From the NCBI GenBank assembly GCA_003140075.1, contig PLIO01000105.1, positions 14,870 to 50,605 on the forward strand: a DNA stretch of 35,736 nt. Reading direction: 5' to 3'. Each line of letters begins with the position of its first letter. The stretch's first letter is position 1. The position numbers were made by a program, and so were the translations under genes. The stretch comes from Acidobacteriaceae bacterium. GTDB taxonomy: Bacteria > Acidobacteriota > Terriglobia > Terriglobales > Acidobacteriaceae. This document shows, one piece after another, positions 11,698-27,185 of the stretch. Under the pieces are notes generated by a model. It ran no database searches and had not been told where the DNA came from. It saw only the letters and a list, made by a program, of their open reading frames with translations.

Positions 11698-14600
11698 ATG
11701 AAGACAGATTCGCGCCAAACCGTGTTCGCGGTAGTCCTCTTCACCCTGCTGCTCACGGCAGCCCTCCATGCCCAGAACCCGCGCGGATCGTTGCGCGGCA
11801 CGGTGCAGGATGCCACCGGTGCCCGCATCGCCTCCGCCAAAATCGTTGCGCAACTATCCGGCTCCTCCATTCAACGTGAGGCCCTCAGCGAAGACCGGGG
11901 CGAGTTTCGTCTCGATGACCTCCAGCCCGGCAACTACCGCATCACCATCAGTGCCGCAGGTTTTGCTCCGGCGCAGGCAGAGGTCTGGATCGCAGTCGCC
12001 ACTGTCCGCGACATTAACGTCACGATGAAGCCGTCGTCCGTCCAGCAGACCGTCAATGTGCAGGGAAGTTCTTCCTCGATTACTACCGAAACGATTGACA
12101 CCTCGAGCGCGGTGCGCGGAGGCGTAGTGGGCAGCCAGGACCTGGAAACTCTGCCGCTTCCGGCACGAAGTTTCGCCAACATTGCCTATCTCGTGCCCGG
12201 AACCGAGCCGGTCGAGCCTTCCGACCCCACCAAGGCGCGCATCACCGCGGTCTCGACCGGGGGCAGTTCCGGCTTGAACAACGAGTTATCGGTGGATGGC
12301 GCGGAAAACTCCGACGACTGGATCGGCGGCTTCCTGCAAAACTTCTCGCCCGATGGCGTTCAGGAATTTGCGGTGCGCACCTCGAACGAAGACGCCGACA
12401 CGGGTTGGACCACGGCCGGGTCGGTGGTGATCACAACCAAGCGCGGAAGCAACCAATGGCACGGAAGCGGAGCGTTCTATGACCGCCAGGCCGCGCTGAA
12501 CGCGCGCTTCCCCATCGAGAACCCGGCGCCGAATCCGAAGCAGCCGTTCTCCCGCCAGAACTACGTTGGAACTTTCGGGGGTCCGGTCGCGAAGGACAAG
12601 GTGTGGTTTTTCACCTCATTCGAAAACGTCCACGAGAACGCGAGCATCGCCTACAGCCCCGCCAGCACGACTCAGTTCGATGCGCTGGCGCAGTTGGCGT
12701 CGGAAGGATTGATCACCGGCATTCCTTCCATCCCGGTTCCCGCCACCGTTCCGATTCCTTTTCGCGACTATCTGAGTTCGTTGCGTTTCGACTGGGCCCA
12801 GTCGTCGAAATCGACCTGGTTCCTACGCGCATCGTCAGACAGCTACCTCACGCATAACGCATTGGTGCAGCAGGCTACGCTGCCCTCTACCGGTCTGACC
12901 ACGCACAACAATTACTGGAACGTGGCGCTCAGCAATACCTATACTTTCAGTTCAAACTGGCTGGGCAATCTGGTGCTTGACGCCAGCCTGTTGCATCTGA
13001 CGCAGACGCGGAATTCGGACCTCGGCTTCGCCATACAGTTTCCCTTCAGCGTGACAGCGCTGACCGTCTCCGGCTTCGAGACATTCGGCGACAATCAGTT
13101 TGCCACTCCCATCACTCTTTTCCCCGCCTTGCGCAATCAGGACAAATACCAGTTCCGCTACGATCTGAGCCACGTTGTGCGTGACCATGCGTTCAAGTTC
13201 GGAGTCGACTTCATTCACGAACCGGTGCTCAGCGGCGCGTTCGCTGCGACGGCGGAGCAGTTCACCACCTATCCCTCCAATCCCGATTGCTACATCAATC
13301 CGCCCGGCCCCGATTGCGGCGGCATCACGGCTGCTTTGCCGTTTTACTACACGCCTCCCAGCGCGATGTGTGATCCAGAACCTCCGACGGGCAGCGGCAT
13401 TAACTGCAAATTTACCCCCGCCGGCGACGGCAGCTTTTCGCAGAACGTTCAACGTCTCGCCTTCTACGCCGAGGATTCATGGCGCGTCTCGCACCAACTC
13501 ACCCTCAACTACGGCTTGCGTTATCAGACGACCTGGGGGCTCTTCATAGGTTCGGGACGAAACGAAGCCGAGAACGCCGCGTATGTGACGCTGCAAGCGC
13601 TGCAGATTCCAATCGTGCCCAGCGTACCCAGTGACTATCGCAAGCAAGTCGCGCCTCGCCTTGGGCTCGCTTACTCACCCGGTAGCAGCGGGAAGACGGT
13701 GATTCGTGCCGGTTTTGGCCTCTACTATGACGATCTGGCACAAAACGGATGGGCGACTGCGTTTCAGGGGGTCAACGACTCGAACTTCACCACCGGGACG
13801 TGCAGCCTTATGGGAGGCCCGGGCACTTACGCGCTCTCCGGTTCAGGCTGCCTGACGGGCGGCGCAGGCGCCACCGGCAATCTGGTCGGCTCTCCTTATA
13901 AAACGCCTTACGCCATTCATACCACCGGCGGCGTGCAGCACGCGTTCAACGAGCATTGGCTGGCCAGTGCCGATTACGTACACGAGCAGGGCAATCACGG
14001 ATACCGCGGCTTCCCCTATACCAGCGGCTCCAGCCTATTCACTCCGCTCATTTCCACATCAGAGCCTCCCACGGAATACGCTGCCGATCAGCAGGCTGTC
14101 GTGCCGAATGTGAATGTGTTCGAGTCCGACAACCGTTCCAGCTACAACGGACTGCTGTTACACCTGCAAGGCAACATGCGCCGCTTCAATCTGGTCGCGA
14201 ACTACCAACTCTCCAAGGCGCAGACCTGGGGATGCTTGCTCGGCGAACTGTTCGACTATGTGGATGGCGTCTGCCCACAACAGCCGAATCAGCCGAATCC
14301 CGGCTTCCTGAACGCTTTCGGACCAGGCGACTACGGACCCTCTGGCGAAGACGTTCGCCATCGCTTCGTGCTGGCCGGCACAGTGCACCTCCCCGGCGGC
14401 TTCGAGTTGAGCACCATTAATCAGTTTGAGAGCGCCCGCCCCATCACCATCACGAACGCCGACAACACCGACCGCATTTATGTAAATGGTGCGTACACCA
14501 GCCTCGACGAATTTCGCGGAACGCCTTATATTCAGTCAGACCTGCGCGTCACGCGTCCTTTCAAAATCAACGAGCGCTGGCAGGTCGACCCGTTCATCGA

Positions 14601-24560: not shown

Positions 24561-25106
24561 TTACGGCAAAACCAGGGTCCCGCCGAGGGATACTGGGGCC
24601 AGGTCAACCCAGCAGTTTTGCGCGTCTTCCCGCACAAAGGTGAGTTGGTCGAGCAGGATGCGGCGGCTTCCTGAATACTGCTGCCAGCGCTCGCGGGCAA
24701 TTTCCAAAGCTTGGCTCGCCGCTTGTTCCGTCGGCATTTTCACGACCGTCAAGTGAGGGATGTACGGCCACTCTTCGGCAAAGGCCAGCGCTTGCGCGTT
24801 CAGTTGGTTGTGTAACTCACAAAGACGAGATGCGGCATGGGCTACACGGATATAAACCGTAGGCGTGGTGGGAACAAAGCTTTCCATGTCGCCCAAAGTC
24901 ACTTCGAAGGGCTCGGCCTGGCCGCAGATCCCGGCCAGCAACTGCAGCGCCGCATTTTCCGTTCCCTGCAGAGGCCGCGGCGGCAGAAAGGTAAGATGAG
25001 CCGCCAGATGAGGCAAGTCGGGATGCAGTTCCCGCCGGAGGTTCTCCACGAACTCTCCCACCGGACTTTTCACGTACGCAACTAACGCATACCGCAGGCT
25101 CGCCAT
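24561..25106 (-). CDS. 2H phosphoesterase / 2'-5' RNA ligase-family protein
   Basis: A 181-residue protein with the two HxT motifs of the 2H phosphoesterase superfamily: HLT at 37-39 (AAHLTFLPPRP) and HLT at 117-119 (YIPHLTVVK), the expected spacing of about 80 residues. Family members hydrolyse or ligate 2',5'-phosphodiester or cyclic phosphate bonds in RNA or nucleotides; the substrate here is unknown. It starts at 25106 and is divergent from tRNA-Pro 84 bases away. The adjacency to a tRNA and to a HEPN-like gene is noted but may be chance. Confidence 0.85.
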   Translation of the reverse strand: MASLRYALVAYVKSPVGEFVENLRRELHPDLPHLAAHLTFLPPRPLQGTENAALQLLAGICGQAEPFEVTLGDMESFVPTTPTVYIRVAHAASRLCELHNQLNAQALAFAEEWPYIPHLTVVKMPTEQAASQALEIARERWQQYSGSRRILLDQLTFVREDAQNCWVDLAPVSLGGTLVLP

Positions 25107-25189: not shown

Positions 25190-25266
25190 CGGGGCGTAGC
25201 GCAGCCTGGTAGCGCACCTGCCTTGGGCGCAGGGGGTCCGCGGTTCAAATCCGCGCGCCCCGACCA
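25190..25266 (+). tRNA. tRNA-Pro (TGG)
   Basis: A complete cloverleaf: acceptor CGGGGCG/CGCCCCG, D-arm GCGCAGCCTGGTAGCGC, anticodon arm CCTGC-CTTGGGC-GCAGG with anticodon TGG, T-arm CGCGGTTCAAATCCGCG, and encoded CCA (25264-25266). Its 3' part is repeated perfectly at 26001-26056, so this gene is the attachment site of an inserted segment. Confidence 0.97.
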
Positions 25267-25267
25267 A
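25212..25267 (+). repeat. Left copy of 56-bp direct repeat (tRNA-Pro 3' part; att-like)
   Basis: Bases from the D-arm (GCGCACCTGCC...) to one base past the encoded CCA are identical, 56 of 56, to 26001-26056. The left copy is part of the intact tRNA. The layout is that of integration into a tRNA 3' end. Confidence 0.9.
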
Positions 25268-25357
25268 AAACAAAACGCAGTAGTTACGCGGCTTTCACTC
25301 CGGGAGTTCCAAGGCAGGGGTCGATTTTGGCAACTGTATCGATTCCCGTTTGCCCCC

Positions 25358-25948
25358 ATGGACAAACCAAAAATTAGAAGGGCGCGTGTCCAACAGAAGA
25401 GGGAGGTGCGAATCCACTCTGAGCTGTGGCATACGGCTAACTGTCTGCTTGAGGCGGGTCAGAAGGACATCAAAGGATCGACGCACCAATTCAGGGCTAG
25501 TCTGGTTTTCCGGGCGTTCTTCCTCGAGGCCTTTTTGAATTGGCTAGGGCAGCTCATTGTTCCCCACTGGAGCTATCTGGAGCGGTTGAAGCCAAAAGAA
25601 AAACTGGACTTATTGAATGGTCTAATCCACGTGACACCCGATTACGGCTCGCGTCCGTGGCAGATTGTGAAGGAGCTTTTCGCCTTCAGAAATGACCTCG
25701 CTCACGGTAAACCCGAGATACTACTCGCGGAAAGCGTGGAGGACGTGGACGGCCTTCTGGATGGAAAGTTAGGTCACATACCCGAGACCGAATGGGAGAA
25801 ATTCAGCACCGAAGAGAACGCTGTGAGGGCCAAGAAAGATGTTGAGGCGATCGCGAACCTTCTCTACAAGCAGTCGCACGTGGAGCACGATGGTATACAG
25901 AATCCATTCTCCTTTGGATCTAAGATCAACTCCGCGACGTTGGAATGA
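25358..25948 (+). CDS. HEPN-like protein, sole gene of the tRNA-Pro insert
   Basis: A 196-residue, largely helical protein with an Arg-x4-His motif at 111-116 (FAFRNDLAHGKPE), the active-site signature of HEPN ribonuclease domains. N-terminal to it are amphipathic helices (SELWHTANCLLEAGQKD at 21-37 and SLVFRAFFLEAFLNWLGQLI at 48-67) and an YLERLKPKEKLDLLNG segment, matching from memory a widespread uncharacterised family with the FRNxxxHG core. HEPN proteins act in toxin-antitoxin, abortive infection and other defence systems; no antitoxin or nucleotidyltransferase partner is present. The frame is open upstream through the tRNA; ATG 25358 is the first sensible start, without a strong ribosome binding site. 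Base composition is lower in GC than in its neighbours, consistent with acquisition. Confidence 0.75.
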   Translation: MDKPKIRRARVQQKREVRIHSELWHTANCLLEAGQKDIKGSTHQFRASLVFRAFFLEAFLNWLGQLIVPHWSYLERLKPKEKLDLLNGLIHVTPDYGSRPWQIVKELFAFRNDLAHGKPEILLAESVEDVDGLLDGKLGHIPETEWEKFSTEENAVRAKKDVEAIANLLYKQSHVEHDGIQNPFSFGSKINSATLE

Positions 25949-26000
25949 AGCACTCGCCACACTCAGAACATTTGACCCCCTCAAAGTCAAATCGCCGTAT

Positions 26001-26056
26001 GCGCACCTGCCTTGGGCGCAGGGGGTCCGCGGTTCAAATCCGCGCGCCCCGACCAA
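26001..26056 (+). repeat. Right copy of 56-bp direct repeat (partial tRNA-Pro; att-like)
   Basis: An exact copy of the tRNA-Pro 3' part that lacks the acceptor 5' strand and most of the D-arm, so it cannot fold as a tRNA. It marks the distal end of the insert; the sequence beyond it (ATTTCACCCAG...) should be the original downstream flank of the tRNA. Confidence 0.9.
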
Positions 26057-26089
26057 TTTCACCCAGATTCCCGCCTCGGAAGACGGACC

Positions 26090-26190
26090 ATGTCCGAAAA
26101 GAGTGCCCTGGTAGCCGGAGCCAACGGCGGCCTCGGAACTCATGTCACAGAAGCCTAGCTGGATGCGGGGTTCACGCGGACTTTAGCAGT
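26090..26190 (+). pseudogene. Relic of a short-chain dehydrogenase/reductase gene (5' end)
   Basis: An ATG at 26090 opens MSEKSALVAGANGGLGTHVT, the N-terminal nucleotide-binding strand and GxxGGxG loop of an SDR protein. After EA a TAG stop (26156-26158) interrupts it; the same frame continues as LDAGFTRT, again typical of SDR proteins, before the similarity ends near 26190. The rest of the gene is missing. It sits 33 bases beyond the right att-like repeat. Confidence 0.65.
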
Positions 26191-26870: not shown

Positions 26871-27185
26871 ATGCCGTGGCACCCCCAAGCTCCTCCCAAG
26901 AAATTGCCGATTGATCTGGCCGTAGTTGACACTGCCGACGGCCGATGGCTTGTTGCGATCGAGACGATCACTGAAACGGGGGGAACTGCGAACTTGCTCC
27001 TCGGAATAATACTGGAGCAAAGTATCGACAACGAAAGAATTCGTATGCGAAAGCTCAGCATGATAGTGAATGCACACGAGGCCCATGAACCTGACAGGGG
27101 CCCAAATCTGCTGGCTCGGATTCGAACGTGGATTGAAGCAACCCAGGGAGACGGCTTCCTTGACTTAACTCAACGATCCTCTTAA
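26871..27185 (+). CDS. Hypothetical protein (104 aa)
   Basis: An ORF of 104 codons, beginning MPWHPQAPPKKLPIDLAVV and ending FLDLTQRSS. It has an alternating strand pattern (DLAVVDTADGRWLVAIETIT) and no membrane segment or signal peptide. AGGATG lies 9 bases before the ATG. It is lower in GC than its neighbours. I do not recognise it; it may be a small conserved soluble protein or spurious. An ORF of similar length on the other strand overlaps it, so the strand choice rests on the better start context and on co-orientation with the Nudix and ABC-F genes. Confidence 0.42.
   Translation: MPWHPQAPPKKLPIDLAVVDTADGRWLVAIETITETGGTANLLLGIILEQSIDNERIRMRKLSMIVNAHEAHEPDRGPNLLARIRTWIEATQGDGFLDLTQRSS

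Follow-up and report, generated by a model that had tools for sequence, protein, structure and literature searches.

A 789-bp insert at a tRNA-Pro gene of an Acidobacteriaceae bacterium: a probable integrase-less island remnant carrying a gene for a predicted HEPN ribonuclease

How does a single small gene come to lie between an intact tRNA gene and an exact copy of that tRNA's 3' part? The question is raised by a 35,736-nucleotide stretch of an Acidobacteriaceae genome (assembly GCA_003140075.1, contig PLIO01000105.1; G000:C60:14870-50605), referred to here at its full length as the window. A first-pass annotation of this DNA described an intact tRNA-Pro gene, 733 bases holding one open reading frame (ORF), and a 56-bp tRNA copy, and proposed a minimal defense cargo of the HEPN ribonuclease kind that was either a satellite element moved by an integrase in trans or the remnant of a bigger island. 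We favor the second of these origins: the insert is probably the integrase-less remnant of a tyrosine-integrase island in tRNA-Pro, with one gene for a predicted defense HEPN ribonuclease. The mechanism is ordinary, and the insert is unusually small.

Architecture of the insert

ARAGORN and repeat comparison confirm the architecture described at first pass. The intact tRNA-Pro(TGG) gene, which is the target gene on the attL side, lies at 25190..25266 (+ strand, as do all parts of the insert; Rfam RF00005, 64.6 bits). The first, attL-like copy of a direct repeat (25212..25267) corresponds to tRNA positions 23-78 and recurs exactly in the second, attR-like copy at 26001..26056. The copies are 56 nt long, 100% identical, and spaced 789 bp apart, with 733 bases and one ORF between them; the mechanical unit of the insert is 789 bp (733 bp plus one 56-bp copy). 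An exact 56-bp copy of part of a tRNA is no chance event. The second copy is an incomplete tRNA, with 22.4 bits against an Rfam cutoff of 29 and no ARAGORN call.

The gene runs from an ATG at 25358 to a stop at 25948 and encodes 196 amino acids (aa), with noncoding parts of 90 bp (25268..25357) to its left and 52 bp (25949..26000) to its right; it is present in a single copy in its genome. The 733-bp insert has a G+C content of 0.518, below every one of the 701 windows of equal length slid along the stretch (mean, 0.586; standard deviation, 0.021; windows overlapping the insert are counted too). Sigma-70-type promoter matches are absent from the insert, versus 0.6 in shuffled sequences, and its one terminator-like match is inside the gene, where shuffles give 1.8. 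The left 90-bp part, compared by eye, has no likeness to the ends of sister-genome islands. We also considered the insert as an integron cassette and rejected this, since no attC-like flank was seen by eye.

An empty site in a close relative

The first-pass annotation had attributed this geometry to a tyrosine recombinase, and had named a single tRNA end joined to the matching flank as what to look for in relatives. Such a locus is present in G253, whose protein from the upstream backbone gene, of the 2'-5' RNA ligase family (PF13563; window 24564..25106, minus strand), is 91% identical. G253 has one tRNA-Pro, followed by TTTACCCAGTTCCC; in the window, the sequence after the second tRNA copy is TTTCACCCAGATTCCC, and we regard 26057..26075 (+) as native flank from its likeness to G253 and G306, the latter having the same flank after its complete tRNA-Pro. 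When the flank is scored from the junction, G253 and G306 reach 10, whereas the other 23 of the 25 relatives reach 6 or less, and a score of 10 is reached by 0.04% of about 20,000 random places. G253 holds the empty site expected of a tyrosine-recombinase insertion into a tRNA gene; because the flank match is short, we rate this support as good, not overwhelming. Relatives that shared the gene and partial tRNA copy at this locus, with no empty-site counterpart, would have spoken for an old tandem duplication; these genomes do not show that pattern.

The G306 locus (L105) has a peculiarity of its own: a 5' tRNA-Pro fragment (positions 1-37) lies at 689-725 beside the ligase gene, and the complete tRNA-Pro is 13 kb on, at 13694-13771, with different upstream sequence. 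This arrangement is a rearrangement replacing the 5' side of the tRNA.

Integrase islands and decay forms at tRNA-Pro

Searches of 45 genus genomes (own genome included) with each neighbor gene and the tRNA show that other cargo also occupies tRNA-Pro genes, a form that the first-pass annotation had named as one to look for. In G216:C127, a PF00589 integrase directly follows tRNA-Pro, and 12.2 kb on there is a copy covering tRNA positions 17-78; ARAGORN calls this far copy a tRNA as well, and it probably carries the native 3' part, because its 3' half equals the window tRNA and that of the near copy does not. G307:C414 has a tRNA-Pro(GGG) and, 6.1 kb further along, a 61-bp stretch repeating positions 20-80, and here the integrase adjoins this second copy. 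A decayed form is seen in G286:C83, where two complete-looking tRNA copies 2.3 kb apart are accompanied by an integrase whose catalytic domain ends at profile position 99 of 172.

Seven of the 45 genus genomes have matches to the G216-type integrase (only 32% identical in one of them), and the window's own genome has none (E ≤ 1e-15). Among the eight best matches of this integrase (E ≤ 3.1e-66), seven are beside a whole, partial, or decayed tRNA-Pro, and at the eighth the contig breaks off. We note that these form a small tyrosine integrase subfamily beside tRNA-Pro of three anticodons (L174, L175, L176, L177, L178, L179, and L181). The integrase type of a further genome, G298, is broader, with seven of 10 loci beside a tRNA (one Pro, one Val, four Ser, and one Lys), and has just two matches in the own genome, at 33% and 34% identity; that genome contains 19 PF00589 matches, and its listed tRNA matches include no further partial tRNA-Pro(TGG) copy.

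We compared 37 stretches of genus relatives, some chosen for their NUDIX side only, and in 19 of these the ligase gene and a complete tRNA-Pro are no more than 0.25 kb apart. In two of the 19 (G319 and G316), a 3' partial tRNA copy starts 94 and 92 bp past the tRNA; the remaining 17 are not all proven empty, since stretches vary in length, some stopping shortly beyond the tRNA. In the G319 and G316 leftovers (L108 1763-1979 and L135 24-239), the partial copy begins in the anticodon loop and there is a palindromic-looking repeat inside. Among the matches listed, some of which may be cut by contig ends, 3' partial copies starting at tRNA position 33 or earlier are present in at least six other genomes (G216, G267, G313, G316, G312, and G319), and 5' partial copies ending near positions 37-44 in at least eight (G321, G245, G280, G314, G203, G216, G286, and G306). 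The sequence after tRNA-Pro differs mostly between genomes, and sister-genome contents include 6- to 12-kb integrase islands, the decayed 2.3-kb form, and the 92- to 94-bp leftovers. From these sequence comparisons we regard the tRNA-Pro locus as an insertion hotspot in the genus.

The same gene in a fuller, island-like locus

A homologue of the window gene is found in an island-like setting in G298:C123 (L162). The order there is tRNA-Pro(TGG), integrase, a Prim-Pol/AAA protein, several unassigned ORFs, the homologue, a gap of 22 Ns, and the final 22 bp of tRNA-Pro. Over 186 residues the homologue shares 69% identity; it lies 9 to 10 kb from tRNA-Pro and is oriented towards the tRNA, opposite to the window gene; the assembly gap conceals its start and any more of the tRNA copy. 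Because of the gap and the reversed orientation, the G298 locus supports the gene being cargo of tRNA-Pro islands, and not G298 being the direct parent. Four of its proteins were scanned, giving the integrase, the Prim-Pol protein, and two without a family, with no transfer gene among them. Between the window gene and its G298 relative, the ratio of nonsynonymous to synonymous substitution rates (dN/dS) is about 0.21, and with the intact reading frame this suggests that the gene has been retained by selection.

The encoded protein is HEPN-like

The R-x4-H motif noted at first pass is present in the 196-aa protein as FRNDLAH (R111-x4-H116), and agrees with the R-x4-6-H motif of the HEPN superfamily. 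The HEPN assignment itself is borne out by a confident structure model (predicted local distance difference test [pLDDT], 92) whose closest structural neighbors are HEPN domains and which has the HEPN helical fold, being HEPN-like over residues 15-182. FR[NS]xxAH is present in 107 of 116 homologues (fragments counted), and the R111-x4-H116 motif is invariant in 10 of 10 sequences compared. Conservation is highest in the block containing R111, N112, and H116, and R111 and H116 are retained in relatives at 24 to 36% identity, which include prophage genes, a terminase-adjacent gene, and an integron-like cassette. We predict, on the model and motif, that the protein is a HEPN ribonuclease, which would act in phage defense.

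Profile libraries place the protein in no known family. Pfam, PADLOC, and PHROGs assign it none, with no family at E ≤ 10 among the PADLOC models of known anti-phage systems, and NCBIfam yields one chance match (E = 0.17; 10.5 bits against a cutoff of 700). The Pfam models HEPN_MAE_28990 and HEPN_RiboL-PSP do not match it above their curated cutoffs; at E ≤ 0.1 they match 16 and 15 of 55 relatives (best E values, 0.0053 and 0.004), and two prophage homologues score 13 to 16 bits versus cutoffs of 26.8 and 28.4. Other scattered single Pfam matches among the 55 relatives were taken as chance. Foldseek searches of PDB and BFVD returned nothing at an E value of 0.001 or lower. Judged from the four libraries tested, the gene represents a new family of the HEPN superfamily.

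Homologues recur on unrelated mobile DNA

A phmmer search identified 116 relatives, 49 to 99% identical; those with organism names are from two Terriglobales bacteria and one Candidatus Angelobacter. Occurrence is patchy, at six of 300 genomes sampled in the family, five of 397 in the order, and two of 396 in the phylum, with the own genome included in each count. Eleven loci (seven genomes and four IMG/VR contigs) were examined in context, and eight are in mobile settings (G000, G298, G614, G160, L011 to L013, and L014); the other three (G237, G001, and G030) were left without a context class.

In G614, from the same phylum and another family, the homologue is a cassette flanked by two attC-like repeats, and its array includes a PF00589 integrase; this array of small ORFs (L204 3703-12305) is presumably of the integron type, judging by eye. 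The G160 homologue is beside a terminase. PHROGs annotation places the L013 homologue between a tail completion/Neck1 gene and a head maturation protease, among terminase, portal, and tail sheath genes. L012 shares the upstream gene (PF05069) and has a major head protein gene downstream, and L011 has an upstream ORF in common, by eye, with other prophage-like contigs, which we take to be Mu-like. L014 has an integrase 2.9 kb from the homologue. These four viral loci were drawn from a viral collection, and so demonstrate no preference for phages. The G237 homologue adjoins a weakly DUF5677-like ORF (E = 0.054), that in G001 adjoins a convergent HEPN_AbiU2 gene (L004 5703-6398; E = 8.3e-17), and the neighbors at the G030 locus have relatives at 55% identity or less.

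The idea that homologues generally lie at tRNAs was rejected, as ARAGORN found none in 12 other loci or in five further stretches; the G298 tRNA is outside those loci and was found by DNA search, its second fragment by reading the flank. In 50,697 phage records, tblastn matched neither the window protein (E ≤ 0.01) nor a prophage homologue (E ≤ 0.001), and a plasmid search gave five weak records at 24 to 32% identity.

Origin of the insert

The observed starting points are the intact tRNA, the 56-bp 3' repeat after the insert, and the single-end locus in a close relative. In the history we favor, an integrase would have recombined the tRNA with an attP that matched tRNA positions 23-78 exactly, the element's copy completing the tRNA and the native 3' part being displaced to the far end; an internal deletion would then have taken the integrase and other genes. 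The protein is predicted to dimerize, with R111 and H116 cutting RNA upon activation by a phage component or infection state.

The satellite origin offered at first pass, a minimal nonautonomous element in which a 789-bp unit is moved by an integrase encoded elsewhere and acting on the two 56-bp sites, seems unlikely to us. Such a unit would require perfect repeats like these, the geometry agrees with that of the autonomous islands of G307 and G216, and the distant G614 homologue resembles a single-gene integron cassette, a kind moved by a recombinase in trans. However, the small tRNA-Pro integrase is without a match in the own genome, which makes movement in trans less supported, and the G298 type has just the two distant matches there; nor does that genome have a second copy of the gene or, among the matches listed, a further partial tRNA-Pro(TGG). 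With the G298 homologue in a ~10-kb integrase stretch at tRNA-Pro, the decay forms, and the absence of the small tRNA-Pro integrase from the own genome, a remnant is favored over a trans-moved satellite. We consider it rather improbable, in the same vein, that a stand-alone HEPN defense ribonuclease family spreads as a one-gene unit over unrelated mobile platforms (a 0.79-kb tRNA-Pro unit moved in trans, a chromosomal integron cassette, an integrase/Prim-Pol island, and a prophage neck/head-protease gap), the window then holding an extremely small tyrosine-recombinase satellite with one defense gene as its entire cargo.

A remnant of the favored kind might nonetheless encode a protein that is no ribonuclease, being a regulator or a HEPN domain without catalytic activity. 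HEPN domains also act as nonenzymatic binding domains, and homologue P0106 carries FKNSIAH in place of FRNxxAH; we find this doubtful, as the block with R111, N112, and H116 is the most conserved and these residues persist at 24 to 36% identity across platforms. An old partial tRNA duplication that came to enclose an unrelated gene without site-specific integration is very improbable: the G319 and G316 leftovers are of a like kind, but too short for a gene, and the G253 empty site largely refutes it. Also against it are the 100% identity of the copies over 56 bp, the like repeat geometry of sister-species integrase islands at tRNA-Pro, and the G+C content of the insert, which is lower than in the rest of the window. 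Assembly chimerism at a repeated tRNA is a concern in an assembly of 276 contigs with 5.8% contamination, but would require the same insert to be flanked on both sides by tRNA 3' sequence somewhere. The flank after the second copy matches the native flank of relatives, and a 99%-identical protein cluster has nine member sequences and two contigs of up to 5.9 kb (which may include the window's own record); we think a chimera scarcely credible.

Relation to known systems

The insert resembles a CIME (cis-mobilizable element), defined as a decayed integrative element that has lost its integration and transfer genes and retained attL and attR (PMC5704250). The window insert likewise keeps its att sites and has neither integrase nor transfer gene (one gene in 733 bp), but is at the small end, with a single gene in 0.79 kb, the nearest fuller relative (G298) having an integrase and Prim-Pol among four proteins scanned. 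By analogy, it would work like a CIME. A second comparison is with the islands at ssrA in Dehalococcoides, which share the use of one small-RNA-gene hotspot, tandem islands, and direct repeats of the gene's 3' end, and of which 16 of 31 have an integration module (PMC3146451). These differ in having a serine recombinase, ssrA, and larger cargo, in place of a tyrosine recombinase type and tRNA-Pro.

For the safe carriage of a lone HEPN protein, tail-activated prophage proteins such as Tha are the best model. Tha is a HEPN anti-phage system of Staphylococcus aureus prophages, and it too is a lone HEPN protein on mobile DNA with an R-x4-H motif (H270 is needed for defense) and a predicted dimer (PMC11087260). 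Tha-1 differs in size and layout, with 301 aa and HEPN at 184-296 compared to 196 aa and a HEPN-like region at 15-182, and a small antisense gene that overlaps it acts as its inhibitor (PMC11087260). In the window, a 124-aa ORF at 25769-26143 (minus strand) is also antisense, overlapping the gene's 3' part as well as the second tRNA copy, and may be chance. HepS of Salmonella prophage Gifsy-1 (PDB 9oik and 9oij) has a lower Z score to the window protein than many other HEPN domains.

The locus is a clean test case, and a very small one, for the erosion of integrative islands that retain a likely defensive gene. Members of this HEPN-like family, for which the four libraries tested have no curated model, turn up in prophages, in an island, and in an integron-like array, and a single-gene effector lacking an evident antitoxin raises the question of its silencing and trigger. 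Among the open-licence papers listed in literature searches (titles and abstract openings), none deals with the HEPN family or the locus.

Downstream of the insert, the backbone gene is of the NUDIX family (PF00293; 26293..26817, plus strand), followed by a small ORF (26871-27185) with a weak Death_3 match below cutoff (E = 0.042). A short-chain dehydrogenase stub lies just past the insert at 26090-26175 and is 81% identical to G306. Since G286, G161, and G267 retain a dehydrogenase ORF of 229 to 232 aa, the downstream side of the hotspot has also lost genes.
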